From positions 1 to 64,000 of the IMG/VR virus record IMGVR_UViG_3300030329_005658: DNA of 64,000 bases. The stretch is one strand, 5' to 3'. A program made the translations under genes and the position numbers. This DNA is from a virus. The stretch's first letter is position 1, and each line of letters opens with the position of its first letter. Below the pieces are notes generated by a model. The model was not told the origin of the DNA and searched no databases. It saw nothing but the letters and a program-made list of their open reading frames with translations. Shown piece after piece: positions 1-33,129 of the stretch.

Positions 1-1524
1 CCTTCTTCCTTTGGCGAAGTCGCTCTTTTTGTAAGTGTTCCTGCTAATTCCGCTGGTACAGCACCAGATACATCGTATTTGCCAATTTTAAAAAAAGGAG
101 CCTCGTTTTCCACCTCAGACGGTAGAAACTTTATCTTAACAGAGCATGTTAATTTTAATGATCCAAAAAGCCAATTTGTCGCAACTGGTATTGATTCCGC
201 AACAGGCTTGAATACTTATTTTGCTGTGAAGGCTTACGGGCAAGTTAAATCAGGAGTCATAGAAAAAGAGGAAATTGATTTGACAAACGAAGGATTTGAA
301 AAATTCAAATTAATCCGAATTGGAGATTCAGACATTTCCGAAATTATTAGTGTTTTTGATTCTTCTGGTAACCAATATCACCAAGTAGACACCCTCTCCC
401 AGGAAGTGATATTTAAAGAGACAACAAATAAAAATGCCCATGTTGATGGTGTAAGGTCGATATTGAAGCCTTTTGTAACAACTAGGAGATTTACCCTAGA
501 GCAAGACGATACAGGCACATATTTACAATTTGGCTTTGGGAGCGAAGAGGAGGATTCTATTGCGGATGCTCTTGCTGAGCCGGCACAGGTGGCCCTAAAG
601 CTTCACGGCAAAAGGCAAATAACCACTTCTGGATTTGATCCTTCTAAGTTACTATCAACTGATAAGTTAGGAGTAGCACCATCAAATACGATATTGTCTG
701 TTTCTTATCGTACAAATTCAGGAGACAATACTAGCGCAGCAGCCAACGCTATAACTTCAGTTAACGGCTATGAGTTGGTGTTTCCAGACGAAAATTCCCT
801 ATTGTCATCTGAGGTACAATCAGTTAGAGCCTCCTTGGAATTAACCAACGAAGAGCCGGTTACTTCTGCTGGGGCCGATATTCCCGTTGACGAGCTAAAA
901 CAAAGAATAAAATCTCATTATGCTGCCCAGGGTAGAGCAGTAACTAAGCAAGATTATGAATCATTAGTATACAACATGCCGGCATCATTTGGGTCAATAA
1001 AGCGAGCCAATATCATTAACGATATGGTTAGAAATGATAGAAAAATTAAAATGTATGTTATTTCGGAAGATTCTGACAACAAGCTATCTTATACCTCTAG
1101 CGTCACTAAGAATAATATTAAAAATTGGCTCAAGCATTATAAAAGCCTGAATGATGTGGTCGAAATTCATGATGCTAAGATCATTAACTTTAGTGTTGAT
1201 TTCAAAGTCATGACTGATAGAAGATTCAATAGCGATGAAGTGCTGTTTGATTGTATAGAGGAGCTAAAATCTTATTTTGACCAAAAGTTGTATATTGGTG
1301 AACCACTATATATAACACGAATATATGATCAACTTAATAATGTTGATGGGGTTGTTGATGTTAAGAGGGTTACGATTAACAATAAAGTCAATGGGGTGTA
1401 TTCCATTCTTCCATTTAATTTTAATCATGCTCTATCAAGTGATGGAACCTACTACAAGGTTCCAAAAAATGTAATATTAGAATTAAAGTTTTCTGATTTA
1501 GATATACAAGGGATTGCAATTTAA
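1..1524 (+). CDS. gp6: Baseplate wedge subunit, T4 gp6-like (5' end missing)
   Basis: The reading frame is open from base 1, so the gene starts upstream of this window; a TTG at 79 is not needed as a start. The visible 507 codons look like the baseplate J/gp6 family: an N-terminal beta-rich region, then the typical helix-containing stretch near 925-1010 (RAVTKQDYESLVYNMP followed by FGSIKRANI), and a C-terminal region ending in a short beta domain. In T4, gp6 dimers join the wedges into the inner ring of the baseplate around the hub. The following gene starts 1 base after the stop codon. Family assignment is from motif recognition, not an alignment. Confidence 0.8.
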   Translation, partial: PSSFGEVALFVSVPANSAGTAPDTSYLPILKKGASFSTSDGRNFILTEHVNFNDPKSQFVATGIDSATGLNTYFAVKAYGQVKSGVIEKEEIDLTNEGFEKFKLIRIGDSDISEIISVFDSSGNQYHQVDTLSQEVIFKETTNKNAHVDGVRSILKPFVTTRRFTLEQDDTGTYLQFGFGSEEEDSIADALAEPAQVALKLHGKRQITTSGFDPSKLLSTDKLGVAPSNTILSVSYRTNSGDNTSAAANAITSVNGYELVFPDENSLLSSEVQSVRASLELTNEEPVTSAGADIPVDELKQRIKSHYAAQGRAVTKQDYESLVYNMPASFGSIKRANIINDMVRNDRKIKMYVISEDSDNKLSYTSSVTKNNIKNWLKHYKSLNDVVEIHDAKIINFSVDFKVMTDRRFNSDEVLFDCIEELKSYFDQKLYIGEPLYITRIYDQLNNVDGVVDVKRVTINNKVNGVYSILPFNFNHALSSDGTYYKVPKNVILELKFSDLDIQGIAI

Positions 1525-9753: not shown

Positions 9754-12700
9754 ATGGCGAATTATTATTTAGATTTTGTTGGATTGAACACATTTATTTA
9801 CGAACCGGTTGGCTGGAAGCCAGAAGAGCAATATAGTATTGCCAACCAACAGGGCCGCGAGTCTCAATGGTTTGGTACTACTTTAAATTTTCAAGTTAAA
9901 CAAAACCACATTGGTTGGGGTGATATTGCTTCTGGGTCTGCTGCTTATACAAAAAATTTCCGCTTCCCGGCACACTTGGTTGATCCGTACACCCAAGCGC
10001 ATGCGGCTGATGCTGCTGGGCTTCTTCGGGCAACAGCATCTTTTTTTCCTGCTCTTATGATTCACCGAAATGGGCCGTACGGGCACCCCACGTGGAAACA
10101 GATTAGAGTTGGTGATAACCCTCTTACACGCAGGCAAAAAAAGGAAAACGTTTTCACATATGTTGTTGAGCCCGGAGAAGAATTTGTTTCTAACCTTAAT
10201 GGCATAACAGAAACCTTGACAGCCAAATATGGCCAGATAAAATCTCTTATTGAGACCCCGGTGACATCCAAATATAAGCCTCTGACACTAACTTACTATA
10301 GCCAACCGGGAACACAGAACCAAGGAGTAGGACTTCTCAGGGCGCATGTATCTTTAGGTAACGACACTCATCATTTTAATAATGAATCATTAGATACTTA
10401 TTATAATTTATATAGTTGTGAAACTAGAGGCTGGAAGCGGCTAAAGGCAATGTATTTAGAAGGTGCCAAATCCATTGGCGCCTACTCCTCAAATGGGAGC
10501 CCCGTAAGCAGAGTGGATAAGTTAACTTATTCTGAAATAGTTTATCCACCTTCCGTTTATACATATAAAAAGTATACAAGACAAAGAACGACATTTGCTT
10601 TTAATTGGAGAGACAACCGAGAAAACAGGACTGAAGTTGTTTCACACAACTTTGTTGATGTTGGGTCTGCTGTTAATATAACGCAAAGCAAGTGGTCAAT
10701 GGATGTTGAATCTACCTGGGGCACCCGAGTAGAAACAGGTGCTGGATTTTTCCGTCATCACGGAGTTGAGCAAGTTTTCGGTAAAGACCAGCGAGATTTT
10801 GGAATTCTTCAAAACTCTTATTCAAGATATCTTCTCGGGTTAAATTTTATTATTAGTCTTAGTGCGAGTGTACAACTTGATGATTATTTGAAGCCGGCCC
10901 CTCTTTACGCTTACCATCATACACTTACTGATTCGGCCTCTGTAGTTTCTCCCAATGGGATGAAAATACAGGGTGTTAGCTATGGTACTAGTATGGGGAA
11001 TCTTGCCACCACGCAATTGCCTAGTGGCGAGGCCAAATGGGAAGCAAACACAACTAGGCAAATTATATCCTCAAGCGCTGATGGTGAGTTTGTTTATATT
11101 GATGAAGCAAGAAACCCATTCTATGATTCTTATGATGAATACTGTGAAGAGCTTAGACTTAAATATAAAAATTATTCGATTGTTCCAGAATTTAGAATGA
11201 GTGGCCGAATTGGGACTGGGTTCATTTTTAATGTTCAACCAGAGCACTGGTCACACTTTGAGGTGACTGGTGGTTTAATACATAAAAAGAACAGCCGAGA
11301 TGATGATTTTTATAAGATTTTCTCCAATTCTGACTTTTTAAAGCACTTCGATGCTGTTGCTTGGACAAATAAAGATGTATTGGAACCGCACAGCATTACC
11401 CTAACTTGTAATGCGGCTATGAAATTTCTTCCGTACGAAGGGTTTTACCCGGCAGAGAGGACTGTACAATTATCTGAGCAGTTTTTTAATTCCTACAAAG
11501 GAGGATTATCTTTTGAGCAATCAGGTAGCAACCAGTACGAACCAAGAGATGTGGGGTATACGATACTGATGACACCCCTCTTCGCTCCAGGGGTACTGTT
11601 TAACTCAATTAAATCGGGTATTGCCTGTGACTACCCAATTATAACTGGTTCTTTTCTCTCTTTAACAAACAAAATTACTAAAAGTAGTGGCAATTATTAT
11701 TTACACGTAAACCAGCCTCACGACGGCACAGCGCTGTTTGATAAAAGGGTGCCATTTAGAGCCCTTTTGGAGCCGGAAAAATATTTAAAGAATGTTAGTC
11801 TTCCTAGCAACATACCACACGAATATGGCAATCTATCTTCATCTATTCTTTGGGCCCCGGAAGGTAGCGAAGACAGGCTATATAAAATGATGATGCATAA
11901 TTTTGTTTCTGAAGTACCAGAATTCTTTTTGTCGGATGATAACTTTACAACATTTACTTCCTTGCCCTCTAACGATTCCAATTTTGGTAATCTGGTGAGT
12001 GGCAGCACTTATTTTATGAGAGTGGCCCTAAACAAGACAATGGGCGGAGCAAATATTCCTGTTGTGTCTGGGTCTTCTGAAGTAAAATACATACCTCCTC
12101 AATATGTAAATACAAATGATCGAGATACTATTTTGGACACTAGTTACGAAAATTTTACAATGTATTCTAGGCCTACGGGTTTTGGCCCCCCTTCGATAAT
12201 CCAGCATTTTTATCAAGGTGAAGGAGTTACTGGGTCTACAAATTCAGCTAATGGGGAAAACTACCCCTTTACACCTCCGTATTATTATGGTGGGGGCTTC
12301 GCGGATATACAATTCACTCCTACTACAACCAAAAAACACACAGTTTATGAGATAATTGCCGGTGCGGAAGTAGAATATTATAGATATCACAACATCAACG
12401 GCAGAGACCAATGGCTCAAGACAGACGCGATCAATAAGAATGCCATGCATGTGGATGCTTCTCTTTCTTTATTTGGAATAGGTGAAGTAGACGATGATCG
12501 AATGATGTCAAGTAACGAGCCGAATGCTCGCTGGATAATACAGCCTTGGTTTGAGACACCGATGTTAAACTTTAATCATTTATCTGCTTCATCAGCGGTG
12601 ACACTGCCAACAAATGCATCCCAGTCTGTACCGAGGGGAATGTGGCACCAATATGGAAGAATAGAGCAGGACCCAGCAAAGGGCATTTTTATGAGCGTCT

Positions 12701-13947
12701 CAGACATTCCTGCTGATTGGCACATAAATGCGATAGGCGGCAATTTTGCGCACATCCCACCAGCCGGAAATCACTCTGGTAGTCACAAGATCAGAAGCCT
12801 CGCAGAGGCCATTGGGATGCAGAACCAATCAAGGCGCCTTGGTGAATTAAAAGAAACTAAATTGGTCAAAGAGGCCATCGTCGCCGTGCCTTTCTTCGAA
12901 CCACTCACTGGTGAAAGAAGTTTTTTTAGAATAGCAAGACAAGATTGGGATAACTCCGTTTTCAGGGCCGAAGAGGGCATAGGCATGTCCGCTAGGATGG
13001 CCCTGTCTGAGGAAGCAGTGAAGCTGGCTTCTCAAATGAAAGAGTTTGTGTTTCCACCACCAATGGACTTTTACCACAATAGGCATATTCAGCCATTTGT
13101 TATGTACGTTTTCGAATTTGAGCATCTTTTTAATAAACAGGATTTGGCGGACATGTGGCAGAATTTACCCCCTAAGCTCTCAAGGCAGTTTAAATCAGCC
13201 ACTAGCACCATAACTCATGAGTTGTTTTCACATGAATTTCTGGGCAGTGGGGCCTTTTATGCTGATGGCGGCAGCGACCAGATGATTCCAGGCATAAAGG
13301 ACCCAAAAAAATTACGAGACCGCATTCAGTGGATGGTATTTAAAGTAAAACAGAGGGCAAAGTCTAATTGGTATGAGAAGGTTGCCATACAAGATCCAGA
13401 GGCCCCACCTGATTTCCAGGTATCAATTGGCAACGAAAACATTAAGAACGAAGCCCCAATTAACTATAATTGGCCTTATGATTTCTTTTCTATGATCGAA
13501 CTAGTTAACATCGAGGCAGCAATTGATATGAAGAAAATCCCCCCTGGTAGACAGGCCATCCCAGATAGACCGCCCGAAGAAGAGCAGACTCCCTCAGAAT
13601 CAGGTTATGCTGTTTTTGAAAACGAAACAGATATGATAACAGATTTTATGGAAAAACGGGATGATTCCACCCCTCAGATGGAAATTGATCGAGGGCAGTT
13701 TGAAGCATTGCAGCCATCCTCGATTCACGGCCAGAATACTTCAGAGGTCATGGGGGCTGTTGTTAAAGTAACTCCGCAGTATGTAACGAATCAGATATCT
13801 GAAATTGAACAAAAGCTCACGGAGGGATCTTATCTGCCGGCTACAGCGAATCAAGCTCGAAATGAAATCCAGGCGATCAGTCAAATGAATACAAACTCCC
13901 CAGCAGTGCTTCAGCGCCTACAGGCATTAAAGAATATGTTGGAATAA
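9754..13947 (+). CDS. Large virion-type protein of unknown fold (1397 aa)
   Basis: I do not recognise a family. ATG 9754 is chosen over an in-frame TTG at 9742 because GGAG lies just upstream at the right distance. The protein starts MANYYLDFVGLNTFIYEP, is rich in aromatic residues, Asn and Ser, and lacks a signal peptide or membrane segment. The last 150 residues change character: Pro/Glu-rich linker (PDRPPEEEQTPSES), then a helical, Gln-rich tail. It sits between the LamG protein and a group of tail-type genes and begins 1 base after the previous stop, so it is most likely a baseplate or tail-fibre component expressed with them. The function is inferred from context only. Confidence 0.55.
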   Translation: MANYYLDFVGLNTFIYEPVGWKPEEQYSIANQQGRESQWFGTTLNFQVKQNHIGWGDIASGSAAYTKNFRFPAHLVDPYTQAHAADAAGLLRATASFFPALMIHRNGPYGHPTWKQIRVGDNPLTRRQKKENVFTYVVEPGEEFVSNLNGITETLTAKYGQIKSLIETPVTSKYKPLTLTYYSQPGTQNQGVGLLRAHVSLGNDTHHFNNESLDTYYNLYSCETRGWKRLKAMYLEGAKSIGAYSSNGSPVSRVDKLTYSEIVYPPSVYTYKKYTRQRTTFAFNWRDNRENRTEVVSHNFVDVGSAVNITQSKWSMDVESTWGTRVETGAGFFRHHGVEQVFGKDQRDFGILQNSYSRYLLGLNFIISLSASVQLDDYLKPAPLYAYHHTLTDSASVVSPNGMKIQGVSYGTSMGNLATTQLPSGEAKWEANTTRQIISSSADGEFVYIDEARNPFYDSYDEYCEELRLKYKNYSIVPEFRMSGRIGTGFIFNVQPEHWSHFEVTGGLIHKKNSRDDDFYKIFSNSDFLKHFDAVAWTNKDVLEPHSITLTCNAAMKFLPYEGFYPAERTVQLSEQFFNSYKGGLSFEQSGSNQYEPRDVGYTILMTPLFAPGVLFNSIKSGIACDYPIITGSFLSLTNKITKSSGNYYLHVNQPHDGTALFDKRVPFRALLEPEKYLKNVSLPSNIPHEYGNLSSSILWAPEGSEDRLYKMMMHNFVSEVPEFFLSDDNFTTFTSLPSNDSNFGNLVSGSTYFMRVALNKTMGGANIPVVSGSSEVKYIPPQYVNTNDRDTILDTSYENFTMYSRPTGFGPPSIIQHFYQGEGVTGSTNSANGENYPFTPPYYYGGGFADIQFTPTTTKKHTVYEIIAGAEVEYYRYHNINGRDQWLKTDAINKNAMHVDASLSLFGIGEVDDDRMMSSNEPNARWIIQPWFETPMLNFNHLSASSAVTLPTNASQSVPRGMWHQYGRIEQDPAKGIFMSVSDIPADWHINAIGGNFAHIPPAGNHSGSHKIRSLAEAIGMQNQSRRLGELKETKLVKEAIVAVPFFEPLTGERSFFRIARQDWDNSVFRAEEGIGMSARMALSEEAVKLASQMKEFVFPPPMDFYHNRHIQPFVMYVFEFEHLFNKQDLADMWQNLPPKLSRQFKSATSTITHELFSHEFLGSGAFYADGGSDQMIPGIKDPKKLRDRIQWMVFKVKQRAKSNWYEKVAIQDPEAPPDFQVSIGNENIKNEAPINYNWPYDFFSMIELVNIEAAIDMKKIPPGRQAIPDRPPEEEQTPSESGYAVFENETDMITDFMEKRDDSTPQMEIDRGQFEALQPSSIHGQNTSEVMGAVVKVTPQYVTNQISEIEQKLTEGSYLPATANQARNEIQAISQMNTNSPAVLQRLQALKNMLE

Positions 13948-22994: not shown

Positions 22995-23023
22995 TTGACA
23001 GAAGTTTGAAATTGTGTTATAAT
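22995..23023 (+). promoter_or_regulatory. Consensus sigma-70 promoter for the RuvC-like gene
   Basis: TTGACA at 22995-23000 and TATAAT at 23018-23023 with a 17-base spacer: a perfect consensus pair. The expected transcription start (6-7 bases after the -10 box) falls at about 23030, on the base before ATG 23031, so the message may be leaderless. No Shine-Dalgarno sequence is present upstream of that ATG, which fits. Confidence 0.8.
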
Positions 23024-23705: not shown

Positions 23706-23734
23706 TTGACAACTGCCTTGTGGCATGATATATG
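23706..23734 (+). promoter_or_regulatory. Sigma-70 promoter at the head of the first microgene run
   Basis: TTGACA at 23706-23711 and TATATG at 23729-23734, spacer 17. The sequence before the -35 box (ATAATTTGACA) is the same as at the promoter at 26128. The -10 box overlaps the ATG at 23732, so transcripts from here would start about 23741, inside the annotated first microgene. Confidence 0.65.
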
Positions 23735-23935
23735 GAGAATAAGCACTTAATAAAAGTTGGCTCATTGGTAGTAGATGCCAATCCCTATAAGGCACCAGAG
23801 TTGTTTTATGGTTATGGAATTGTTCTCGAAGTAATAAGCGAATTTTATGTGATTGTCCATTGGGATAAATATAATTTTACTCAAGCTGTAAGAATTTCTG
23901 ATTTGGAGGTATTAGATGAAATTGAAGATAGGTGA
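23732..23935 (+). CDS. SH3/KOW-like microprotein 1
   Basis: 67 residues. The family pattern is visible as IKVGSLVV (for the usual MKIGDLVK), then YGYGIVLEV, a VIVHW strand and the C-terminal LEVLDE. The start is uncertain: ATG 23732 lies inside the -10 box and has no ribosome site, while alignment with the other copies would start translation at codon 23750 (ATA), 12 bases after a GGAG. The gene overlaps the next one by 20 bases. The fold and function are inferred: a small five-strand barrel that may bind protein or RNA. Confidence 0.55.
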   Translation: MENKHLIKVGSLVVDANPYKAPELFYGYGIVLEVISEFYVIVHWDKYNFTQAVRISDLEVLDEIEDR

Positions 23936-24089
23936 TAAGGTAGAGCGGAGGTGGAAACCGGCTTTAGGCCATGGGGTCATTACTCATATACTTGGGAATA
24001 AGATAGTAGTGACTTGGTACGGCCCGGAAAAACCAATAGTTGAATTTGAGCAAGCAAAATATCTAAGAGTGCTCAATGAAAGTCGGTGA
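23916..24089 (+). CDS. SH3/KOW-like microprotein 2
   Basis: 57 residues, MKLKIGDKVERRW then HGVITHI, a VVTW strand followed by YGPEK, and C-terminal LRVLNESR. ATG 23916 is preceded by GGAGGT six bases upstream; that GGAGGT encodes part of the LEVLDE end of microprotein 1. Two extra residues precede the IGD motif compared with most copies, making the overlap with the upstream gene 20 instead of 14 bases. Confidence 0.7.
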   Translation: MKLKIGDKVERRWKPALGHGVITHILGNKIVVTWYGPEKPIVEFEQAKYLRVLNESR

Positions 24090-24252
24090 TCTTGTAAAAG
24101 TCAAGCCATCACCTTGGGTTTTTCGCTCTACGGACATTGGAATCATATATAATAAGACTAGCACCTGTGTCCATGTGAATTGGTTTGAGTGGGGCTCTAT
24201 TCGTTATAGCATTGGAACCACAGAAGACGAATTAGAAGTTATCTCATCATGA
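24076..24252 (+). CDS. SH3/KOW-like microprotein 3
   Basis: 58 residues: MKVGDLVKVKPSPW, then TDIGIIYN, VHVNW with FEWGS turn, and LEVISS at the end. The first 14 bases (ATG AAA GTC GGT GA) are also the end of microprotein 2 (…NESR stop). The ribosome site is weaker here (AAGAGTGCTC) than at later copies. Confidence 0.7.
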   Translation: MKVGDLVKVKPSPWVFRSTDIGIIYNKTSTCVHVNWFEWGSIRYSIGTTEDELEVISS

Positions 24253-24464
24253 ATTCGGGAGATTTAATTCTAATTCGAGTATGGCCTTGCGATGAATTGA
24301 GGTTTGGGCTTTTGGTTCAACAACTAGGCTGGAGAGAAGTGATGGAGTTACAAATTAGATGTAGGCGAGCATGGTGGGTTCATTTCCCAGATATTAACAA
24401 AATGATGGCTTACGATGAAGACTTAATAATATTATTATCCGAGGACGAAAATGAACACGTTTAA
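24249..24464 (+). CDS. SH3/KOW-like microprotein 4 (divergent)
   Basis: 71 residues; overlaps the previous gene by ATGA. It keeps SGDLILIRVW, FGLLVQQ and a WWVHF strand in the expected places but has a longer loop and ends LSEDENEHV rather than EVINE. It overlaps the next, unrelated gene by exactly 14 bases (ATG AAC ACG TTT AA), the same overlap length as in the array, although the sequence differs. Confidence 0.65.
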   Translation: MNSGDLILIRVWPCDELRFGLLVQQLGWREVMELQIRCRRAWWVHFPDINKMMAYDEDLIILLSEDENEHV

Positions 24465-25155
24465 GACATATGAAACCTGCCAAGTATTTTATTCCAATTG
24501 GTCGCAGAAATTAAAAAAGGGTGACGAAAACTATTGGTGGACGATAGCTACCATTGCTGATTGGATCGGTCATGCCCTTGAGGGAAGCCGCAGAATCCCA
24601 GGCCAGCAGCCCATATGGGCATCAACAATAGGAGTTGTCCAGACAAAAGAGAAGTTTGGGCAAGTTAGGGTGTATTGTTATTTTGCTCTTTCAGAAGCTG
24701 TTGAGGCGGAGTACAAATTATATGTAAGTAATATTAAGGAGGAAAATAGCAAATATTACGACTGGAAATCTTCAGGCCAACAAGCTCATATTAAAAAAGA
24801 AGAATATGAAAGCGGCAAGTATCCTATTAAATTGAAAACTATTGAAGACTTTTCTCAAGAATGTTATTTCAAGGACTTGCGACATTATAGAGAAGTTTAT
24901 TATGAAGCTTTTAAGCTTTGGCCACAATACGAATCTGCCATCCGCGCAGGCGCTGACTTCTCTGAATACCTTCTTGAATTGGACGAGGTTGATGCGTATT
25001 TCGATTTTATTTTAAACAGCAACCTTAAATGGTATCGCGAATCCTCTACTTGGTCTGACCAGGGAGAAAATGGAATGAGGGAGTCCAATTTGAGAAGGAA
25101 GAACAAAGTTAAAAATATACTTGATTTCTTAAACAACGGAGAGGAAAATGCCTAA
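24451..25155 (+). CDS. Hypothetical protein, 234 aa
   Basis: No family recognised. The first half holds a conserved-looking core, WWTIATIADWIGHALEG then a STIGVVQTKEKFGQVRVY strand-helix unit; the second half is Tyr/Glu-rich and helical, with a basic end (MRESNLRRKNKVKNIL). No signal peptide or membrane segment. The start overlaps microgene 4 by 14 bases and its last 8 bases overlap ClpS, so it is part of the same translation-coupled operon. The core reminds me of short phage and plasmid proteins that contain a 'KFG.lR.Y' motif, but I cannot assign a function. Confidence 0.6.
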   Translation: MNTFKTYETCQVFYSNWSQKLKKGDENYWWTIATIADWIGHALEGSRRIPGQQPIWASTIGVVQTKEKFGQVRVYCYFALSEAVEAEYKLYVSNIKEENSKYYDWKSSGQQAHIKKEEYESGKYPIKLKTIEDFSQECYFKDLRHYREVYYEAFKLWPQYESAIRAGADFSEYLLELDEVDAYFDFILNSNLKWYRESSTWSDQGENGMRESNLRRKNKVKNILDFLNNGEENA

Positions 25156-25468
25156 AAAAGGATTAGATAAAAAAGGCGATGTCGGACTTAAAGACAGGCA
25201 AAAACATAAGGTAGAGCCACCAAAGGAATATAAAGTTGTTTTTTATAATGACGATTATACACCAATGGAATTTGTAACTCAGTTGTTGATGCAGATTTTT
25301 CATAAAGACTCAATGACAGCAAAAGCAATAACTCAGCACGTTCATAACAACGGTAGAGGTATCGCCGGAGTATATTCGAGAGAAATAGCGGAAACAAAGA
25401 CACATGAATGTATGGCTATAGCTAAAAACTATGAGCACCCTTTAATGATTGATTTTGAGCCGGAGTGA
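25148..25468 (+). CDS. clpS: ClpS-like N-degron adaptor
   Basis: 106 residues, the size of bacterial ClpS. The recognisable core is YKVVFYNDDYTPMEFV, followed by HVHNNGRGIAGVYSREIAETK. Residues that bind N-terminal Leu/Phe/Tyr/Trp in E. coli ClpS (Asn34, Asp35, His66) fall at the same numbers here (N34, D35, H66), and the N-terminal extension needed to act on the ClpA pore is present and Lys-rich. The protein should deliver N-degron proteins to host ClpAP, or compete with host ClpS and so redirect degradation. It overlaps the upstream gene by 8 bases and is followed by a CTATTTAA motif. Confidence 0.9.
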   Translation: MPKKGLDKKGDVGLKDRQKHKVEPPKEYKVVFYNDDYTPMEFVTQLLMQIFHKDSMTAKAITQHVHNNGRGIAGVYSREIAETKTHECMAIAKNYEHPLMIDFEPE

Positions 25469-25476
25469 CTATTTAA
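25469..25476 (+). promoter_or_regulatory. Candidate promoter element (CTATTTAA)
   Basis: A copy of the CTATTTAN motif directly after the ClpS stop, 40 bases before the aldolase start at 25517. It is the only copy in the early-type block, so its meaning is less certain here. Confidence 0.3.
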
Positions 25477-25516
25477 GTGGTCTTACGAATGGCAAGAAAA
25501 AACAAAGGATAATAAT

Positions 25517-26119
25517 ATGATAACAGCAATGGGCGATGTAATGCGCCGGGCCTATGAGAGGGGCTGGATAACAACAAGAGATGGAAATATTTCACTGAGG
25601 CGAAAGGCGAGTGATATTTTTTACGTCACACCCTCAGGTTGGAGAAAGACGATTATCCATCCAGAGCACATGATCAAAATCAGACTAACTCCAGCCGGCC
25701 TTGATGTTTTAGATGGTCACGCAAAACCATCTGGAGAATTGGCTATGCACGGCAAACTACAGAGGTACCATAAAAGGACTAGGGCTGTTGTTCATCTTCA
25801 TCCTACTAATATTATTGCTGCCATGTATGCTGGGTGGGATTTACAAACTTTAGCCGCCGAATTTCCTGAAGTTTCTAGATACACCAGGGTTGGGCCATCT
25901 GTTCCAGTTTTACCTGTAACTTCCGATGAATTAGCTTGCGCAACCTTTCAAGCAATGACAGCAGAACACTCGAATAGAGTCATTTATGATATAGTTGGGC
26001 AAGGTGCTCATGGGGTTTGTGCTATTGGGCCCAACCCTTGGGATGCTTATGAGCATATTGAGAGACTGGAACACATATGCGAAATCGCCCTTAGGAGTGG
26101 GGTCAAGCCCAAAAAGTAA
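25517..26119 (+). CDS. Class II aldolase/adducin-family protein
   Basis: 200 residues, close to the length of L-fuculose-phosphate aldolase and ribulose-5-phosphate 4-epimerase. The family features are present: TTRDGNISLR near residue 19 (phosphate-binding loop), a PSG at 39-41 and KPSGE at 70-74, catalytic Glu74, and zinc ligands His93 and His95 in VVHLHPTN plus His165 in GQGAHGV. These zinc enzymes cleave or epimerise sugar phosphates; the substrate cannot be told from sequence. All catalytic residues appear to be kept, so it is probably active. As an auxiliary metabolic gene it could alter host sugar metabolism or supply a sugar for DNA or envelope modification. A hairpin-free gap with a sigma-70 promoter follows. 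Confidence 0.85.
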   Translation: MITAMGDVMRRAYERGWITTRDGNISLRRKASDIFYVTPSGWRKTIIHPEHMIKIRLTPAGLDVLDGHAKPSGELAMHGKLQRYHKRTRAVVHLHPTNIIAAMYAGWDLQTLAAEFPEVSRYTRVGPSVPVLPVTSDELACATFQAMTAEHSNRVIYDIVGQGAHGVCAIGPNPWDAYEHIERLEHICEIALRSGVKPKK

Positions 26120-26127
26120 AAAATAAT

Positions 26128-26157
26128 TTGACAAATTCTTCAAGCATGTTATATATT
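26128..26157 (+). promoter_or_regulatory. Sigma-70 promoter of the second microgene run
   Basis: TTGACA at 26128-26133 within AATAATTTGACA, then an AT-rich -10 region: TATATA at 26150-26155 (spacer 16) or TATATT at 26152-26157 (spacer 18). Transcription would start about 26163, leaving a short leader with the strong ribosome site CGGAGGT before ATG 26180. Confidence 0.7.
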
Positions 26158-26179
26158 CTATGTACATCGGAGGTACATT

Positions 26180-26227
26180 ATGAATAGCAGTGGTGGAAAG
26201 CTTCGTGAAAATTGGCGACTTAGTTAG
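26180..26227 (+). CDS. 15-residue leader peptide overlapping the array
   Basis: ATG 26180 follows an ideal ribosome site (GGAGGT, 5 bases away), the best at the head of the array. It encodes MNSSGGKLRENWRLS and stops at 26225-26227, inside the first codons of microgene 5. The GTG start of microgene 5 (26205) has only a weak site of its own, so this leader probably brings ribosomes to it by coupling. I see no amino-acid run or hairpin that would suggest attenuation. Confidence 0.45.
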   Translation: MNSSGGKLRENWRLS

Positions 26228-26390
26228 AGGAACCTATTCCGGAAGAATTGGGATTATTGTGTCACAACCTATTGAATTTGTTAAAGAGACAATAGTTATT
26301 AAGGCATTTGTTTCAGTTTTATGGTCAGACGGGCAGTATTCTAATTCTTATGAATCTCAATTTTTAGAGGTAATAAATGAAAGTAGGTGA
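26205..26390 (+). CDS. SH3/KOW-like microprotein 5 (first of the long run)
   Basis: 61 residues, VKIGDLVRGTYSGRIGIIVS ... FVSVLWSDG ... FLEVINESR. GTG 26205 is chosen because it places the start exactly at the family KIGDLV motif; in-frame GTG codons at 26190 and 26193 are possible alternatives. Its last 14 bases contain the start of microgene 6, and AGAGGT encoding LEV is that gene's ribosome site. Confidence 0.75.
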   Translation: MKIGDLVRGTYSGRIGIIVSQPIEFVKETIVIKAFVSVLWSDGQYSNSYESQFLEVINESR

Positions 26391-26568
26391 TTTGGTACAA
26401 GAGCGCGAATCAGGCGAGGTTGGCATTATTATTGGGGGTCCAATAAACAAGCTCATAGACGGTCCATCGATCATGATACTATTTAATGTTCTATGGATCA
26501 ATGGAGAGGAGGAGCTTGAGGATGTTGAGTTTCTAAAAGTAATAAATGAAAATAGGGGATCTGGTTAA
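26377..26568 (+). CDS. SH3/KOW-like microprotein 6
   Basis: 63 residues: MKVGDLVQERESGEVGIIIG, NVLWINGEE, FLKVINENRGSG. In this copy the usual AGG TGA stop has become AGG GGA, so the protein reads four codons further and the overlap with the next gene grows to 23 bases. That is a clear record of drift from the standard junction. Confidence 0.75.
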   Translation: MKVGDLVQERESGEVGIIIGGPINKLIDGPSIMILFNVLWINGEEELEDVEFLKVINENRGSG

Positions 26569-26734
26569 ATTAAAATGGAGCGGTAATGGTCGACCAAGTA
26601 TCGGAATCGTTGTGAGGCTTTTAAGCGAAAAGCCATATAATAATAAAGTAGTTCAAATTTCGTGGGCAGGGTGGACTATAGCAAAATCCTATTGGGATAT
26701 AGGTGACTTGGAAATAATCAGTGAAATTAGGTGA
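26546..26734 (+). CDS. SH3/KOW-like microprotein 7
   Basis: 62 residues: MKIGDLVKLKWSGNGRPSIG with IVVRLL following, a VQISWAGW strand and LEIISEIR end. ATG 26546 is followed by AAA ATA GGG GAT, the same motif with GGG in place of GGT. Overlaps the next gene by 14 bases (GTG AAA TTA GGT GA). Confidence 0.75.
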   Translation: MKIGDLVKLKWSGNGRPSIGIVVRLLSEKPYNNKVVQISWAGWTIAKSYWDIGDLEIISEIR

Positions 26735-26891
26735 TTTAGTAAGGGTGAGGGATAGATTCTCTAGTGGGGAGGATTATGGGTTTGGGATTATTCTTGAGCC
26801 GCCTAATCAGTATGGAGACGCTATAGTGTATTGGATTGATGACGGGGAGATAGTATGTATTTTAGATCTTTGTTTGGAGGTAGTTCAGTGA
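26721..26891 (+). CDS. SH3/KOW-like microprotein 8
   Basis: 56 residues starting at GTG 26721: VKLGDLVRVRDRFSSG, YGFGIILE, IVYWIDDGE, C-terminal LEVVQ. The C-terminus is cut short relative to the family because the CAG TGA stop comes early, and the overlap with the next gene is only 4 bases (GTGA). Confidence 0.7.
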   Translation: MKLGDLVRVRDRFSSGEDYGFGIILEPPNQYGDAIVYWIDDGEIVCILDLCLEVVQ

Positions 26892-27046
26892 AGATTGGCG
26901 ACTTAGTAAAAATGAGCGTTTGGGAAGATGTCGGCATAGTCATTGAAATTGACGATCATATGGCCCTTGTTTATTGGATTAACGACAAGTTTCTTGAAAA
27001 TTGGAATTGGATAAGCACCCTGGAGATAATCAATGAAAAAAGGTGA
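26888..27046 (+). CDS. SH3/KOW-like microprotein 9
   Basis: 52 residues, the shortest copy: VKIGDLVKMSVWEDVGIVIE, ALVYWINDK, LEIINEKR. GTG 26888 places the start at the conserved motif; a longer in-frame version from ATG 26855 would lie wholly within the previous gene and lacks a ribosome site. Ends with the standard 14-base overlap (ATG AAA AAA GGT GA). Confidence 0.7.
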   Translation: MKIGDLVKMSVWEDVGIVIEIDDHMALVYWINDKFLENWNWISTLEIINEKR

Positions 27047-27215
27047 TTTGGTTAAAGTGAAAGAAGAATTCGCCCAGACATATTATTATACGGAGATGTA
27101 TGGTATTATTATATATCCCCGTGATGAATTTGGTGATGTTGTGGTCTGCTGGACTGACGGACAGACTGAAGTAATTCAGTTTTTTGAGGTAGAGGTAATT
27201 AATGAAAATTGGTGA
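27033..27215 (+). CDS. SH3/KOW-like microprotein 10
   Basis: 60 residues: MKKGDLVKVKEEF, MYGIIIYP, VVVCWTDGQ, VEVINENW. The ribosome site GGAGATAATCA overlaps the LEIINE codons of the previous copy. The next start overlaps its last 14 bases (ATG AAA ATT GGT GA). Confidence 0.75.
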   Translation: MKKGDLVKVKEEFAQTYYYTEMYGIIIYPRDEFGDVVVCWTDGQTEVIQFFEVEVINENW

Positions 27216-27453
27216 TCTCATAAGATATAGAGGTAGAAAGCCCACAGATCCACATCCAGGAGTTGTCGGTAACCTTGGAACGTGGAAGACGCTTGGTGTT
27301 GTCGTACGCTTTACAAAAGCTGCGTATGATATAACAGGGGAAATGTTTCCCTCAGTTGAATATGTTGACTTTAATGGGGATCATATAATTTGTAAATGTG
27401 AAGATGTAGAGGTGATTAATGAAAAAAGGGTCCAAAGTAAGAACAACCTTTGA
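27202..27453 (+). CDS. SH3/KOW-like microprotein 11
   Basis: 83 residues, the longest copy: MKIGDLIRYRGRKP, LGVVVRFT, VEYVDFNGD, VEVINEKRVQSKNNL. The usual stop after NE(K/N/S)R is lost (GGG TCC instead of GGT GA), so it reads seven more codons and overlaps the next gene by 35 bases. A longer loop is inserted between the first two strands. Confidence 0.75.
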   Translation: MKIGDLIRYRGRKPTDPHPGVVGNLGTWKTLGVVVRFTKAAYDITGEMFPSVEYVDFNGDHIICKCEDVEVINEKRVQSKNNL

Positions 27454-27583
27454 TGGCAAAGTAGGTATCTCAAAGGGTCCAATCTTTGCTCTTAGTGTTT
27501 GGTGGATTTTGGTTCAGTGGCCCGATGGGAGAGAAGCCATGGTTAAGGAGCAATTTCTAGAGGTGATAGATGCAGATCGGTGA
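27419..27583 (+). CDS. SH3/KOW-like microprotein 12
   Basis: 54 residues, recovered here by reading the frame from ATG 27419: MKKGSKVRTTFDGKVGISKG, WWILVQWPDGREA, FLEVIDADR. The start is preceded by AGAGGTGATTA. It starts with KKGSKV rather than KIGDLV, but the W..DG strand and LEVI end are kept. Overlaps the next copy by 14 bases (ATG CAG ATC GGT GA). Confidence 0.7.
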   Translation: MKKGSKVRTTFDGKVGISKGPIFALSVWWILVQWPDGREAMVKEQFLEVIDADR

Positions 27584-27755
27584 TTTAGTAAGATGTAAGT
27601 ATTTTCATACTATTGGCATTGTGGCATCACGACCTGAATACTGGCCTAATGATGGTACATCGAATGTTGATAAGGTTGTCAAAGTATACTGGGCCCATGG
27701 CGCATATTCAAAATACAAGACTCAATACTTGGAGGTGATAAATGGAAGTCGGTGA
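27570..27755 (+). CDS. SH3/KOW-like microprotein 13
   Basis: 61 residues: MQIGDLVRCKYFHTIGIVAS, VVKVYWAHGAY, YLEVINGSR. Ribosome site AGAGGTGATAG. The standard 14-base overlap with the next copy is ATG GAA GTC GGT GA. Confidence 0.75.
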   Translation: MQIGDLVRCKYFHTIGIVASRPEYWPNDGTSNVDKVVKVYWAHGAYSKYKTQYLEVINGSR

Positions 27756-27960
27756 CTTAGTAAAATTTGTGAAATATTATGATTCGAATCTATTGGATCG
27801 GGTATCATATCATTTAGTTGGAAAAACAGGAGTCTTAATAAGAAAGGTTACCGATTCCATAGCAGAGGATTGGGGAGCAGCATGGGATGTTTTAGTTGGA
27901 GACGAGGTAGAACCCTTCTGTTATGAAAGGTGGATGGAGGTGATCAGTGAAAATAGGTGA
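27742..27960 (+). CDS. SH3/KOW-like microprotein 14
   Basis: 72 residues: MEVGDLVKFVKYYDSN, GKTGVLIRK, AWDVLVGDE, MEVISENR. Ribosome site GGAGGTGATA at 27731-27740. The centre is longer and the W..DG strand is changed to WDVLVGDE. Overlaps the next copy by 14 bases (GTG AAA ATA GGT GA). Confidence 0.75.
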   Translation: MEVGDLVKFVKYYDSNLLDRVSYHLVGKTGVLIRKVTDSIAEDWGAAWDVLVGDEVEPFCYERWMEVISENR

Positions 27961-28144
27961 CTTGGTAAAACTAAAGAAGAAATGGAAAAATGTTGAATAT
28001 AGCCCTCAAGAGGTTGAAAATCGAGTTGGGGTTGTTATTGCTCGTTCCCGAGAATATGGCTGGAAGGTTTATTGGATTACGAATGGAGACACAGCATTCA
28101 AGTTTGGTCAAGATTTGGAGGTGATCAATGGAAGAAAAGATTAA
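27947..28144 (+). CDS. SH3/KOW-like microprotein 15 (last of the run)
   Basis: 65 residues from GTG 27947: VKIGDLVKLKKKWKNVEY, RVGVVIARS, WKVYWITNGD, LEVINGRKD. Ribosome site GGAGGTGATC at 27936-27945, a ten-base match to the complement of the 16S rRNA 3' end. The gene overlaps the primase start by 17 bases. Confidence 0.75.
   Translation: MKIGDLVKLKKKWKNVEYSPQEVENRVGVVIARSREYGWKVYWITNGDTAFKFGQDLEVINGRKD
28117..28130 (+). promoter_or_regulatory. Extended Shine-Dalgarno site of the primase inside microgene 15
   Basis: GGAGGTGATC at 28117-28126, one base before ATG 28128. It is complementary over ten bases to the usual 16S rRNA tail (GATCACCTCC) and at the same time encodes the EVI of microprotein 15. 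The same ten bases precede GTG 27947, and nine of them (GGAGGTGAT) precede ATG 27742. Confidence 0.7.
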
Positions 28145-29066
28145 AATACTGTCAGACATCCTTGGAAGACCCAACACCCCTCAAGGTGGAGAGCTTTACT
28201 ATCATTGTCCGTATTGCAACCATCATAAGAAGAAGCTTGCCATTAACCTCAAGCGAGGCTGGCACTGCTGGGTCTGCGACAAACGAGGCAAGAACGCTTA
28301 TCGTATCGTTCGCAAGTTTGGAACATATCAGCAAAGACAGAAATGGCTTGAGCTTGAAGGCAGACTCGATTTATCAGAGTTTGATGAAATCTTTAATGAA
28401 ATTAACAACATAGAAGAAGAACAAGTGATCTCCTTACCAGACGAATTCGTTTCGCTCTGCAACAGACACCTGCCCCGGTCTTCAAAGAAAGCCCTCGATT
28501 ACCTCAAGAGCAGAGGTATTGGCCCAAGTGAAATCCTGAGGTGGAAAATCGGCTATTGCCCTGAGGGCCGATACGGCGGTCGCATCATCATTCCCTCCTT
28601 CAACAACAGGGGCAACGTCAATTATTTCATTGCCAGATCATATGTCGGTCACTCTTGGAGATACCTCAATCCCCCGGCAGAAAGAGACATAATTTTCAAC
28701 GAATTGTATGTAGACTGGGATGAGCCGGTGACGCTCGTAGAAGGAGTTTTTGATGCCATTTCGGCCGGGGAAAACGCTATTCCCGTATTAGGCTCCACTC
28801 TCCGAGACAGAGCCAAGCTTTTCCAAGCGATTGTGCTGAATGATACTCCGGTTTACATGGCCTTTGACCAAGATGCAGAAAAAAAGACTGGACAAATCAT
28901 CAAGAATATGTTATACTATGATATCGAGCTTTACAAAATTGACGTAGGTGGCTTTGAGGACATTGCCGAAATGCCGCCACGGATTTTTGCATCTCGAAAA
29001 CAAATGGCGCAAGCTATCGATCATGATGATTATTTCTTGATGGATGAGCTTAGGAGGATCATGTGA
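28128..29066 (+). CDS. DNA primase (CHC2-type zinc finger plus TOPRIM)
   Basis: 312 residues. N-terminal zinc finger with Cys27, Cys30, Cys47 and Cys50 (HCPYC ... GWHCWVCDKRGKN), then a region with RSSKKALDYLKSRGI, and a TOPRIM core with VTLVEGVFDAISAGE (catalytic Glu), VLGSTL and MAFDQDAEKK (metal-binding DxD). It makes RNA primers for lagging-strand synthesis; the T4 counterpart is gp61, of similar length (342). No helicase domain is fused, so a separate helicase must be encoded elsewhere. Translation is likely coupled to the microgene array. The stop overlaps the next gene's GTG. Confidence 0.9.
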   Translation: MEEKIKILSDILGRPNTPQGGELYYHCPYCNHHKKKLAINLKRGWHCWVCDKRGKNAYRIVRKFGTYQQRQKWLELEGRLDLSEFDEIFNEINNIEEEQVISLPDEFVSLCNRHLPRSSKKALDYLKSRGIGPSEILRWKIGYCPEGRYGGRIIIPSFNNRGNVNYFIARSYVGHSWRYLNPPAERDIIFNELYVDWDEPVTLVEGVFDAISAGENAIPVLGSTLRDRAKLFQAIVLNDTPVYMAFDQDAEKKTGQIIKNMLYYDIELYKIDVGGFEDIAEMPPRIFASRKQMAQAIDHDDYFLMDELRRIM

Positions 29067-29758
29067 AGAAGATTAAAATTGGTAAAACATGGAACGCTTG
29101 GTGCTGGGAAGACGAGAATGGGGTCAAGCACAAAGAGTGTACTAAGTGCAACACCCTATTGGAGCTAAGCGCAGAAAACTTCTACAAACAAAATACAACC
29201 AAATCTGGGTTTAGAGCCTCTTGCAAAAAGTGTTGTGATAAACAAACAATGGAAAAATATAAGAAAGACCCACAATATTTTAAAGAATGTGCCAAAAAAT
29301 GGAAAGAAAACAACCCAGAAAGATATAGAAAGCTCTTAAATAAGCAAAGAGAAAAACAGAAACTGAAAAGAGCATCACTATCGCCCGAAGAATTAGAAGT
29401 TGTAAGAGAAGCAGAAAGAGAGAGAATAATGGATTGGAAAAGGAATAAATGTACTTCCGGAATCTATACAATAACAAACAAAGTCAACGGTAAAGTGTAT
29501 GTCGGAGAATCTTATGCTATCGAGAACAGGTGGCACTCCCATAGAAGTGCTTTGAATCGCAAAGGCAAATGCAATAGACAATTATTAAGTGATTGGGAGA
29601 CATACGGAGAGCAAGCTTTTGAATTTAAAATAATAAAAGAGTTGACAAACTCTTCAAAAATGATTAGGTTGATTGAAGAAGAAAGAATAATTACAGAATT
29701 CGAAAATAGTGGCACCACTGTTTATAACGCAGATGACAGCAGAAATAAAATAGTTTAG
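29063..29758 (+). CDS. GIY-YIG homing endonuclease
   Basis: 231 residues, start GTG 29063 with GGAGG upstream. The nuclease domain is at about residues 131-225: SGIYTITNKVNGKVYVGES has both GIY and YVG elements, followed by R(W)xxH and a C-terminal Glu (EEERIITEF). Ahead of it are a Cys-rich element (ECTKCNT ... CKKCCDKQ; four to five Cys, probably a zinc finger) and a Lys/Glu-rich linker typical of free-standing homing enzymes. Such enzymes cut DNA at a specific site and spread by repair. It lies between primase and the recombination genes without splitting a gene, so it is probably an inserted free-standing element that uses neighbouring signals. Confidence 0.85.
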   Translation: MKKIKIGKTWNAWCWEDENGVKHKECTKCNTLLELSAENFYKQNTTKSGFRASCKKCCDKQTMEKYKKDPQYFKECAKKWKENNPERYRKLLNKQREKQKLKRASLSPEELEVVREAERERIMDWKRNKCTSGIYTITNKVNGKVYVGESYAIENRWHSHRSALNRKGKCNRQLLSDWETYGEQAFEFKIIKELTNSSKMIRLIEEERIITEFENSGTTVYNADDSRNKIV

Positions 29759-29988: not shown

Positions 29989-32900
29989 ATGTTTAAAATT
30001 GTACATATGGCGGATATTCACATTCGCAACCTCAAGTATCACGAAGAGTACCGAGCGGTCTTCAGCAAAATGTATGAGTCTCTGCTCGAACAGCAGCCAG
30101 ACTATATTACGGTTTGCGGTGATATCGCACACACGAAGACCCAACTGAGCCCTGAGTATTTTCAGCTTTGTACTGAGTATTTGCTTGGCTTGGCAAACAT
30201 CGCACCAACAATTATAATTGCCGGTAACCATGATGGCAATCTAAAAAACGCAGATCGCCAAGATGCTGTGACTCCTATTGTTAATGCGCTCAAGCACCCG
30301 AACCTTCATTATTTGAAGAATTCCGGGGAGTTTAGTCCAGAGCCGGGTATTTGTTTTAATGTTCTTTCGATTTTCGACCGAGGCAACTGGATTAAGCCGT
30401 CAAACGAAAGCGCAATCAATATCGCTCTTTATCACGGCGCGATGATTGGCAGCAAAACCGGATCAAATTGGACAATGTCACAAGGCGATGATGACATTAG
30501 CATTTTTAAGAATTTTGATTACGCAATGCTTGGAGATATACACCGGCAGCAAGAATTGGACCCTGAGGGCCGCGTTAGGTACTCTGGTAGCCTCATTCAG
30601 CAAAAGTTTAGCGAGAGCCCTCTTAAGGGCTATCTTCTTTGGGAAATAGAGTCGAAAGACAATTTTAAAGTAAAGAAAGTCAATCTTGCCAATCCAAGGC
30701 CATTTATTACAGTGCGTTTAAATTCTGATGGCACGATACCAGCAGGCACTCATGCCCCTCGTAATTGCCGCTTGCGCCTTGTGTCTTCCACAAATCTCCC
30801 TTCAGATAAGCTCAGAAAAGCAAGGGCGATAGCAGAGGCAAATTGGAGGCCATATTCGATTACAACTATTAACGGCAAAGAGGCTCATTCATCAAATGAC
30901 GGCAGTTACGCGAATGTTGTATTAAAGGAAAATCTTAGAGACTTGTCTGTTCAGGAAAAATATATTAGAGACTATTTATCGGGCATGGAACTGGACAATG
31001 CCGTAATCGACAAGGTTCTAGATCATAATAAAAAATATGACATCGTAGCACAACAGAATGAGGAGGTATCACGCAATGTTGTTTGGAAAATCAAAGAAGT
31101 CGAGTGGGAAAACTTATTTAATTACGGAGAAAAAAATAAAATCAATTTTGAAAACCTCCGGGGGCTTGTTGGCATCTTCGGCCGTAATTATTCCGGCAAG
31201 TCTAGTATTATTGACAGTATTTTATTCACACTATTTAATTCAACCTCAAAGGGTGAACGAAAGAATGTACACGTAATTAACCAAAACCGAGAGAGAGCCA
31301 AGGGCAAAATTCAAATTCAAATCGGAGATAGGACGTACCAAGTTTGCCGCAACCTTGAGAAGTATAAAAAGCGGTTGCGAGGAAAAGAGACGCAAGAAGC
31401 TAGGATCGATTTAGATTTCTCATTAATATCCGAAGACGAAAGTTTGAATGGCACCACCAGAAACGAAACAGATGCCAATATCCGTAAAAGGTTTGGAACC
31501 ATTGATGATTTTCTTTTGACATCAATGTCGAGCCAACTTGACTCTCTCTCTTTTGTTAAAGAGGGCTCAACAAAGCGCAAAGAGATTCTCGCCAAGTTTC
31601 TTGACTTGGAAATCTTTGATAAGAAATTCAAGATGGCTAAAAAAGATGCTGCGGAGATGCGTGGTGTTATAAAAAGAATGCAAGAAAAGCAGTGGGATCG
31701 CGAAATCATAAAAAACCAGGAGATTCTGGAAGAGATAGCAGAGGATAAGGCAAGGCAAGATGAGATGTGCGATTTGTTGGGCAAGCAAGTGGTTAAGATT
31801 AGTAATGAGCTTGATGCCGTAGAGGCGCAAATTAGAAGTATTCCAGCCGAGATTCTTGACATTGAACAAATCAGATCTGAAATTGAACATAAGGAATCCC
31901 AGAGGGCTATTCTGCTTAAACGAAATTTGAATCTGACATCTGATATCTCGCAAGCCCTGGATGGAATCAAGAACAGTCAGGAAATAATTTCAAAAATAGA
32001 CAAATCCATGCTCCTCTCTATTAAGAGCGAAGCCTCTGAGATTGAAGAGGGAATTAAAAAAATAAAAGATACTGCGAAGTCCTTATTGCGAGAACAACAC
32101 CAAAATCAGAAAAAGATGAAATTACTTAATGGCATCCCATGCGGAGACCAGTACCCAAGTTGTAAATTTATCTGTGATGCCAACAAGGCCTTAAAAATAC
32201 TTCCTGACCTCAGGGAGCAGTCCATACACCTTGAAAGCATGAAAAACGATTTATTGAGCGATTTGGCCGTTTTAGGGATTGGTGATGTGGATAGGCAATT
32301 GGCCCAGTATGAAGATTTAAGTAACAAGGTGAAAAAGCTCCAGAGGCAAGTAGAGACGAACCAGCTAATGTTGGAGTCTAATCGTGACAAGGCCAAGTTG
32401 TTCGCGAACGAGATTACTGACTTAAAAGTGAAATGTAAGTCCTATGAGGACAATCGAGAAGCAATTGAAAATCTGGAAACGCTCCTGAGAGAAAAACAAG
32501 GGCTGGTTTCTTCTGTCAAAAACAAACAGGTTAAGCTTGACAGGTGTGAAGCAAAATTCCATGACCTTTTGGTTGAAGAGGGAACAACTAAGCAAATTCT
32601 TAAATCCTTAATTGAAGGCAAGGCTGAAATGGAAGAGGTTGAAAAGGGTTGGGTTGCTTATGACTTGTTCATGCAATGTATGCATCCAAGTGGTATCCCT
32701 TATAGCATTATCAAGAAGCGCCTTCCCCTTCTTAACGAAGAGATAAGCAAGGTTCTGGAAAATATTGTTGATTTTGAGGTCTTTTTTATTAACAATGATA
32801 AAACGCTTGACATCATGATTAAGCACCCTGCTTATGATCCAAGGCCCCTCTCTATGGGCTCTGGTGCGGAAAAGACTCTTGCTTCTATGGCGATACGGCT

Positions 32901-33129
32901 GGCATTGATTTCAGTTACAAATTTGCCGAAATCCGAACTATTTATACTTGATGAACCAGCAACAGCTTTGGATCAAGACCATATGGAAGGGTTTACAAAC
33001 CTTTTGCGAATTATTAAAAACCAGTTTAAGACTGTAATTTTGATCTCTCATCTTGACTCATTAAAAGACGTTGTTGATAAAGTCATTGATATTCAGAAAG
33101 AAGATGGGTATGCGAAGGTTGATATATAA
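29989..33129 (+). CDS. gp47/46: Fused recombination nuclease, gp47-gp46 (Mre11-Rad50/SbcD-SbcC) in one chain
   Basis: 1046 residues. Residues 1-350 form a calcineurin-like phosphoesterase: MADIHIR (Asp9, His11), VCGDIAH (Asp45), AGNHDGN (Asn80, His81), LYHG (His149) and LGDIHRQQ (His185). Residues about 370-1046 form the Rad50-type ATPase: Walker A GIFGRNYSGKSS at 395-406, long coiled coils, a hook region PCGDQYPSC at 717-725, an ABC signature LSMGSGAEKT near 953 and Walker B ELFILDEPATALD near 983-995, then ISHLDS. In T4 gp46 and gp47 are two proteins that resect DNA ends for recombination-dependent replication and host DNA breakdown. Here no stop or frameshift divides them, so this is a natural fusion. 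Start ATG 29989 has AGGAGGG upstream. Confidence 0.9.
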   Translation: MFKIVHMADIHIRNLKYHEEYRAVFSKMYESLLEQQPDYITVCGDIAHTKTQLSPEYFQLCTEYLLGLANIAPTIIIAGNHDGNLKNADRQDAVTPIVNALKHPNLHYLKNSGEFSPEPGICFNVLSIFDRGNWIKPSNESAINIALYHGAMIGSKTGSNWTMSQGDDDISIFKNFDYAMLGDIHRQQELDPEGRVRYSGSLIQQKFSESPLKGYLLWEIESKDNFKVKKVNLANPRPFITVRLNSDGTIPAGTHAPRNCRLRLVSSTNLPSDKLRKARAIAEANWRPYSITTINGKEAHSSNDGSYANVVLKENLRDLSVQEKYIRDYLSGMELDNAVIDKVLDHNKKYDIVAQQNEEVSRNVVWKIKEVEWENLFNYGEKNKINFENLRGLVGIFGRNYSGKSSIIDSILFTLFNSTSKGERKNVHVINQNRERAKGKIQIQIGDRTYQVCRNLEKYKKRLRGKETQEARIDLDFSLISEDESLNGTTRNETDANIRKRFGTIDDFLLTSMSSQLDSLSFVKEGSTKRKEILAKFLDLEIFDKKFKMAKKDAAEMRGVIKRMQEKQWDREIIKNQEILEEIAEDKARQDEMCDLLGKQVVKISNELDAVEAQIRSIPAEILDIEQIRSEIEHKESQRAILLKRNLNLTSDISQALDGIKNSQEIISKIDKSMLLSIKSEASEIEEGIKKIKDTAKSLLREQHQNQKKMKLLNGIPCGDQYPSCKFICDANKALKILPDLREQSIHLESMKNDLLSDLAVLGIGDVDRQLAQYEDLSNKVKKLQRQVETNQLMLESNRDKAKLFANEITDLKVKCKSYEDNREAIENLETLLREKQGLVSSVKNKQVKLDRCEAKFHDLLVEEGTTKQILKSLIEGKAEMEEVEKGWVAYDLFMQCMHPSGIPYSIIKKRLPLLNEEISKVLENIVDFEVFFINNDKTLDIMIKHPAYDPRPLSMGSGAEKTLASMAIRLALISVTNLPKSELFILDEPATALDQDHMEGFTNLLRIIKNQFKTVILISHLDSLKDVVDKVIDIQKEDGYAKVDI

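Follow-up and report, generated by a model that had tools for sequence, protein, structure and literature searches.

The array and its genes

The DNA analysed here (the window, 64,000 nucleotides) is part of the 72,564-bp IMG/VR record IMGVR_UViG_3300030329_005658 (G000) and carries fifteen overlapping small genes on the plus strand, each of about 52-83 codons, arranged as a run of four at 23732-24464 and a run of eleven at 26205-28144 (Table 1). The array-bearing virus is marine and infects bacteria and, judged from the large terminase, portal, sheath and tail-tube-like proteins, the primase and the recombination genes encoded in the window, it looks T4-like; the virion genes were named from our own reading of the window open reading frames (ORFs) and the primase and others by Pfam. 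A profile trained on 953 members from other phages, with the sequences of the window and of its close relatives left out (the external profile), matched 15 of the 1,021 window ORFs at E < 1e-3, and these are exactly the array genes and no others. With the same profile no match was obtained among the reversed ORFs of the window, nor among 41,703 reversed ORFs of all the loci considered below. Pairwise identity of the other copies to gene 5 is 20-48%.

The original prediction, made on this DNA from its letters, had described fifteen SH3/KOW-like genes in two runs, and all of these ORFs are present. Its coordinates hold for the runs and the gene sizes, the start of gene 9 being corrected to a GTG at 26888. 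The start of gene 1 is uncertain because the promoter-like site upstream of it, found by direct reading, overlaps its ATG. Promoter-like sites, counted as consensus matches, are no more numerous in the array region than in shuffled sequence. The primase gene that bounds run 2 served as the anchor for aligning the loci of relatives.

Table 1. Positions in the window of the array genes and the features bordering them
Feature	Position	Strand	Basis and remarks
Promoter-like TTGACA-17-TATATG before run 1	23706..23734	+	Direct reading; weak -10, absent from scan list
Gene 1	23732..23935	+	External profile E 2e-8; start codon uncertain
Gene 2	23916..24089	+	External profile E 9e-5; 60% identical orthologue in primase array of relative L006
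Gene 3	24076..24252	+	External profile E 8e-13
Gene 4	24249..24464	+	External profile E 9e-4; most divergent, end without junction motif
Sigma-70-like promoter TTGACA-18-TATATT before run 2	26128..26157	+	11/12 match, suggestive only
15-codon leader ORF MNSSGGKLRENWRLS	26180..26227	+	Direct reading; end overlaps gene 5 start, same frame as array junctions
Gene 5	26205..26390	+	External profile; 74% identical to first copy of L006 array
Gene 6	26377..26568	+	Junction reading, external profile; overlap TGA mutated, giving short GSG tail
Gene 7	26546..26734	+	Junction reading, external profile
Gene 8	26721..26891	+	Junction reading, external profile
Gene 9	26888..27046	+	Junction reading, external profile; GTG start, 4-nt overlap
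Gene 10	27033..27215	+	Junction reading, external profile
Gene 11	27202..27453	+	AlphaFold, junction reading, external profile; overlap TGA lost, giving tail
Gene 12	27419..27583	+	Junction reading, external profile
Gene 13	27570..27755	+	AlphaFold, external profile; modelled six-strand SH3-like barrel
Gene 14	27742..27960	+	Junction reading, external profile
Gene 15	27947..28144	+	Direct reading, junction reading, external profile; retains GGAGGTGATC
DnaG-type primase gene, 3' boundary of run 2	28128..29066	+	PF08275 E 1e-6; present in relatives

The junction between genes

At 8 of the 13 junctions in the window the overlap is exactly 14 nucleotides (nt), a stretch that is used twice, as the close of one gene (..ESR*) and as the opening of its successor (MK(V/I)GD..); thus GAGGTGATAA-ATGAAAGTAGGTGA gives ..EVINESR* in the frame of the first gene and MKVGD.. 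in that of the second. Where the TGA of the overlap has been lost, as in genes 6 and 11, the protein reads on into a short tail. The same 14-nt overlap is found at most of about 670 junctions outside the window, and the family-wide consensus of the border is tggaGgT.aT.A.TGaAagTcGGTGAttT.gT. Loci from other phages were fetched from viral contigs by the junction DNA pattern (at least 120 stretches). An exact 14-nt overlap also occurs at 332 of 492 junctions that fall outside the retrieval pattern and, among loci fetched via the primase alone, at 21 of 32, and the retrieval pattern is therefore not its cause.

GAG encodes the glutamate of the C-terminal EV(I) motif in 97% of internal copies, compared with 44% at other glutamate codons, so that the C-terminal end is largely kept at the RNA level, where GGAGGT is the ribosome-binding site for translating the following gene. 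Gene 15 retains the motif shown for it in Table 1 and can therefore act as ribosome-binding site for the primase gene at 28128. From its sequence, the leader ORF ahead of gene 5 may be the remnant of an earlier cassette end.

These observations change how the conserved ends are to be understood. It had been proposed that the ends of the proteins are kept and the middle varied, and between copies this is true, but it was missed that both ends are the same DNA. As it stands, the notion of conserved ends as simply a scaffold around a variable binding site is not supported: the signal that starts translation of the following gene shapes the C-terminal end, and the start common to the units is a repeat at which exchange occurs.

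Exchange of single cassettes

Local tandem duplication followed by divergence, as in an ordinary gene family whose shared ends are set by the needs of translation coupling and fold, would account for the tandem layout and the homology of all members, and the junction is indeed under translation constraint. In runs of at least four genes, however, none of 471 adjacent pairs and 1 of 1,166 other pairs reaches 50% identity. Neighbours are thus not closest to each other, and the arrays have therefore not grown by recent local duplication. Furthermore, the same cassette is found with different neighbours: orthologues at 80-95% identity are followed by a different gene in 28 of 40 cases, and one cassette (at least 90% identity) occurs in four neighbourhoods, including an A-X-B against an A-Y-B arrangement in which the gene two places upstream is the same and the gene between differs. 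The closest relatives of window genes 5 and 2, which lie in separate runs in the window, are adjacent in L006.

The identity between such orthologues breaks at the junction on both sides, which again speaks against duplication. For orthologue pairs with a different next gene (80-99.9% identical, n = 20), nucleotide identity lies between 0.84 and 0.97 as far as the end of the overlap, falls to 0.71 at +14..22 and is 0.25 beyond +22, where the random value is 0.27-0.28; for pairs sharing the next gene it stays at about 0.8 past the junction. A mirror-image break is seen on the 5' side of orthologous cassettes (n = 27 pairs). In the most direct case, two loci (L100 and L102) share 99.5-100% identity along some 11 kb and otherwise differ by exactly one 176-bp cassette, which is flanked by the perfect 20-bp repeat ATGAAAGTCGGTGATTTGGT. 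Taken with the exact gain or loss of a single cassette, these breaks make growth by tandem duplication an improbable origin for the arrays.

Spread among phages

A profile search of all the fetched loci gave at least 1,179 members, spread over about 135 loci. These loci belong to large phages, uncultivated and mostly marine, and the longest run among the matches listed has 16 genes. When 26 other phage contigs (62-267 kb) were searched whole, 3-33 members were found in each. Copy number among relatives, which had been suggested as a check, differs with distance: loci with an 85-91% identical primase have 1 to 7 detected copies and those with a 60-66% identical primase 0-1. A search for similar arrays in other phages had also been called for, and the arrays proved to be widespread. 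Such a series had been considered unfamiliar; as regards named databases this is right, but in uncultivated phages long arrays are common. Searches of 50,697 cultured phage records by tblastn and blastn with single copies, the consensus and a 16-gene array gave nothing credible, the family profile had no match in T4, KVP40, P-SSM2, HTVC008M, Mel-JY01 or immuto, and no description of such arrays was found in the open-access literature.

Carriage of the arrays by bacteria was considered and rejected. The junction pattern was found in only five contigs of metagenome-assembled genomes (MAGs), which look phage or chimeric where checked. The ends of a TMED69 MAG contig are repeated, as in a circular phage. 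In CP070664.1 (L224-L226), the published MAG "chromosome" of candidate division WOR-3 bin77, a phage terminase, tail genes and family arrays lie beside masked runs, and this is probably a chimeric assembly. The 305,838-bp contig NHDW01000006.1 (L215 / G050:C5), filed as Methylococcaceae, carries the 24 family matches listed for genome G050; it has a match repeated 280 kb apart near its ends and resembles a circular jumbo phage genome whose sequence runs on beyond its own starting point.

Fold, selection and possible functions

The AlphaFold model of gene 13 is a six-strand SH3-like barrel with a predicted local distance difference test score (pLDDT) of 93.5, and that of gene 11, the longest copy, has a similar barrel outline (pLDDT 79.4) with a long low-confidence loop between strands 1 and 2. 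Structure prediction, which had been proposed as a check for a common fold, thus gives the same barrel for both, the gene 11 model being the weaker. With its six strands the gene 13 model agrees with the five to six of a small SH3-like barrel, and Foldseek matches it among solved structures to HspQ, eS4, PetP and MutS2 SH3 domains, no single one being significant. The best fold matches in BFVD are unnamed viral proteins (A0A516L/A0A516M..., E 2.5e-4, up to 39% identity), many in one accession series, that probably belong to the same family. Searches of members against Pfam and PHROGs gave weak unnamed matches only, and DUF2158 (PF09926) was matched by 1 of 100 members, at an E of 0.0021 that is below the curated cut-off.

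Between phages, the ratio of non-synonymous to synonymous substitution (dN/dS) for the same copy is about 0.1, middle included, a value that is approximate as several dS values are saturated. The genes are therefore translated, in agreement with their having been put forward as real coding genes, and, after a cassette has arisen, its middle is maintained; that region varies between copies, as had been noted, but is not fast-evolving within a given cassette. Selection of this kind rejects the idea that the runs are repeated DNA or RNA elements with chance open frames, to which the conserved DNA repeat at each unit border might have pointed. The external profile and the predicted fold also count against that idea, no Rfam match was found, and it can be practically discarded.

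The main rival to a set of binders with different partners is a shared nucleic-acid role, the proteins being nucleic-acid or ribosome-binding regulators (KOW-like, as are NusG, Spt5, uL24, eS4 and T4 MotB), each tuned to another site. Both profile and fold resemble the KOW/SH3 domains of those proteins, the family profile picking up, among PDB chains, the KOW regions of Spt5 (E 5e-5) and of NusG (E 3.5e-4), and the KOW protein MotB of T4 is a DNA binder that changes the binding of H-NS (PMC7827196). Proteins are bound by SH3-like barrels just as well, however, and when 100 members were compared with Pfam (E <= 0.01) no KOW model was matched. In addition, the isoelectric points (pI) of the fifteen proteins range over 4.1-9.8, such a span being found within single arrays, and about 45% of family members have a pI below 6, unlike what a shared nucleic-acid binding would give. 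We consider such a role unlikely, though less so than the other alternatives.

A phage-encoded ClpS adaptor (PF02617, E 6e-29) is encoded at 25148-25468, between the two runs. ClpS adjoins a family copy in L006 and is present in L017 without an array. With ClpS beside them, and with HspQ, a specificity factor of the Lon protease, as the best solved-structure match (5ycq, E 0.013, template-modelling score 0.65), the copies might be adaptors, each presenting another substrate to a host protease. The match to HspQ falls short of significance, many unrelated SH3-like barrels lying close behind it, and ClpS is absent from most related loci, so this is a weak rival with little to commend it.

Neighbouring genes

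A class II aldolase gene of metabolic type (PF00596) lies at 25517-26119 and is 72-76% identical in relatives. Downstream of the primase gene, and before a Smr-domain gene, a GIY-YIG endonuclease gene at 29063-29758 looks like a mobile insertion, being missing at the same place in several relatives. In a 1,046-residue protein encoded at 29989-33129 an SbcD-like nuclease and an SbcC-like ATPase (T4 gp47/gp46 type) appear fused, as they do in relatives L002-L019. A perfect extended sigma-70 promoter, TTGACA-17-TATAAT, is found at 22995-23023 before the gene at 23031. In L117, at 10840-13390, a MoxR-type AAA ATPase gene is followed by one for a VWA metallopeptidase (DUF2201), and this pair recurs near arrays in several phages. 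Clustering of the genes that neighbour arrays gave this pair near some arrays and no constant neighbour.

Discussion

We favour the interpretation, at a probability of about 0.68, that the runs are cassette arrays, in which plug-in units coding SH3/KOW-like barrels are exchanged at shared junctions. The established part is that the array is modular: one protein family with one fold, kept by purifying selection, whose members are exchanged with breaks at the junction and, in one case, gained or lost as exactly one cassette. Each gene is a unit of 150-250 bp coding for one small barrel, and the junction of about 30 bp has four jobs: it provides the ribosome-binding site for the following gene, closes one protein, opens another and forms a short direct repeat. 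A rapidly reshuffled set of small binding proteins is the likely outcome. By homologous recombination at the junctions, either inside a single genome or between phages that co-infect a cell, single units would be added, removed or replaced, and since the units open and close with the same junction such swaps would leave the reading frames and the translation of the remaining units intact. The agent would be homologous recombination rather than a site-specific enzyme. Translation is presumably coupled from gene to gene and expression early, driven by host-type promoters, and the products may make up a repertoire in which the single proteins bind different targets of the host (or of an invader). 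Our best guess for this repertoire is a role in host takeover or counter-defence, with which the diverse surfaces, the location among other small and variable genes and the purifying selection acting on every copy would agree. The proposal that each copy has a different partner is in keeping with the differing surfaces, but loses the argument drawn from conserved ends around a binding site.

Several points weigh against this interpretation. The breakpoint samples are small, partly related and not independent, and all of the sequences are metagenome assemblies. The insertion or deletion at a 20-bp repeat between L100 and L102 could in principle be an assembly slip, although the many different cassette contexts argue against slips as a general cause. 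A junction under such strong constraint looks conserved with or without crossovers, so that the crossover point is fixed to within about 40 nt only. The exchange signal is weaker in the window's own close relatives, which share few cassettes, than in other phages. Diverse pI suits diverse partners but also plain drift, and the function, partners and expression of the array proteins remain putative.

The arrays have features of several known systems. Like integron gene cassettes, their units each hold a single gene between conserved borders and can be gained, lost and reordered; in contrast to integrons, the exchange point lies inside overlapping coding sequence and the units are of one protein family. 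No integrase was seen among the flanking genes scanned, whole genomes not having been searched for one, and the border looks non-palindromic by eye, unlike an attC-type site. In the mosaicism of lambdoid-type phages, short conserved boundary sequences between modules promote exchange; here the boundary is repeated at every gene of a one-family array, where it also supplies the stop, the start and the ribosome-binding site. Clusters of small early genes are known from host-takeover regions, that of phage SPO1 being one. T4-type gp30.5 (phage TuIa) and DUF2158/YodC have a similar barrel in Foldseek (E 0.003-0.009), but the matches are below curated cut-offs; genes of this type are to our knowledge solitary, and we know of no arrays or junctions among them. 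MotB of T4, an early gene product that improves phage fitness, has an N-terminal KOW domain and a C-terminal OB fold (PMC7827196). It shares a KOW/SH3-like domain with the array proteins, but it is a single two-domain gene conserved among T4-type phages, whereas the array members are single-domain, lie in arrays and are exchanged as cassettes; they are mostly 50-80 residues long, and at the 52-76 residues of most members there is no room for a second domain.

The family is thus abundant and essentially unnamed, with a self-consistent means of swapping single genes. It also provides a case in which a conserved protein end is a by-product of the start signal of the next gene, a caution for reading conservation in overlapping small genes. 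It seems to us an even bet that large marine phages hold an exchangeable library of small binding proteins, whose universal 20-30 bp border would let the host-targeting set be rewritten gene by gene with expression intact, in effect an integron for host interaction that needs no integrase. The junction offers a DNA tag with which many candidate host-targeting proteins may be collected and, if the proteins do bind different host or defence factors, each array would be a readable record of the hosts and defences that its phage has met.

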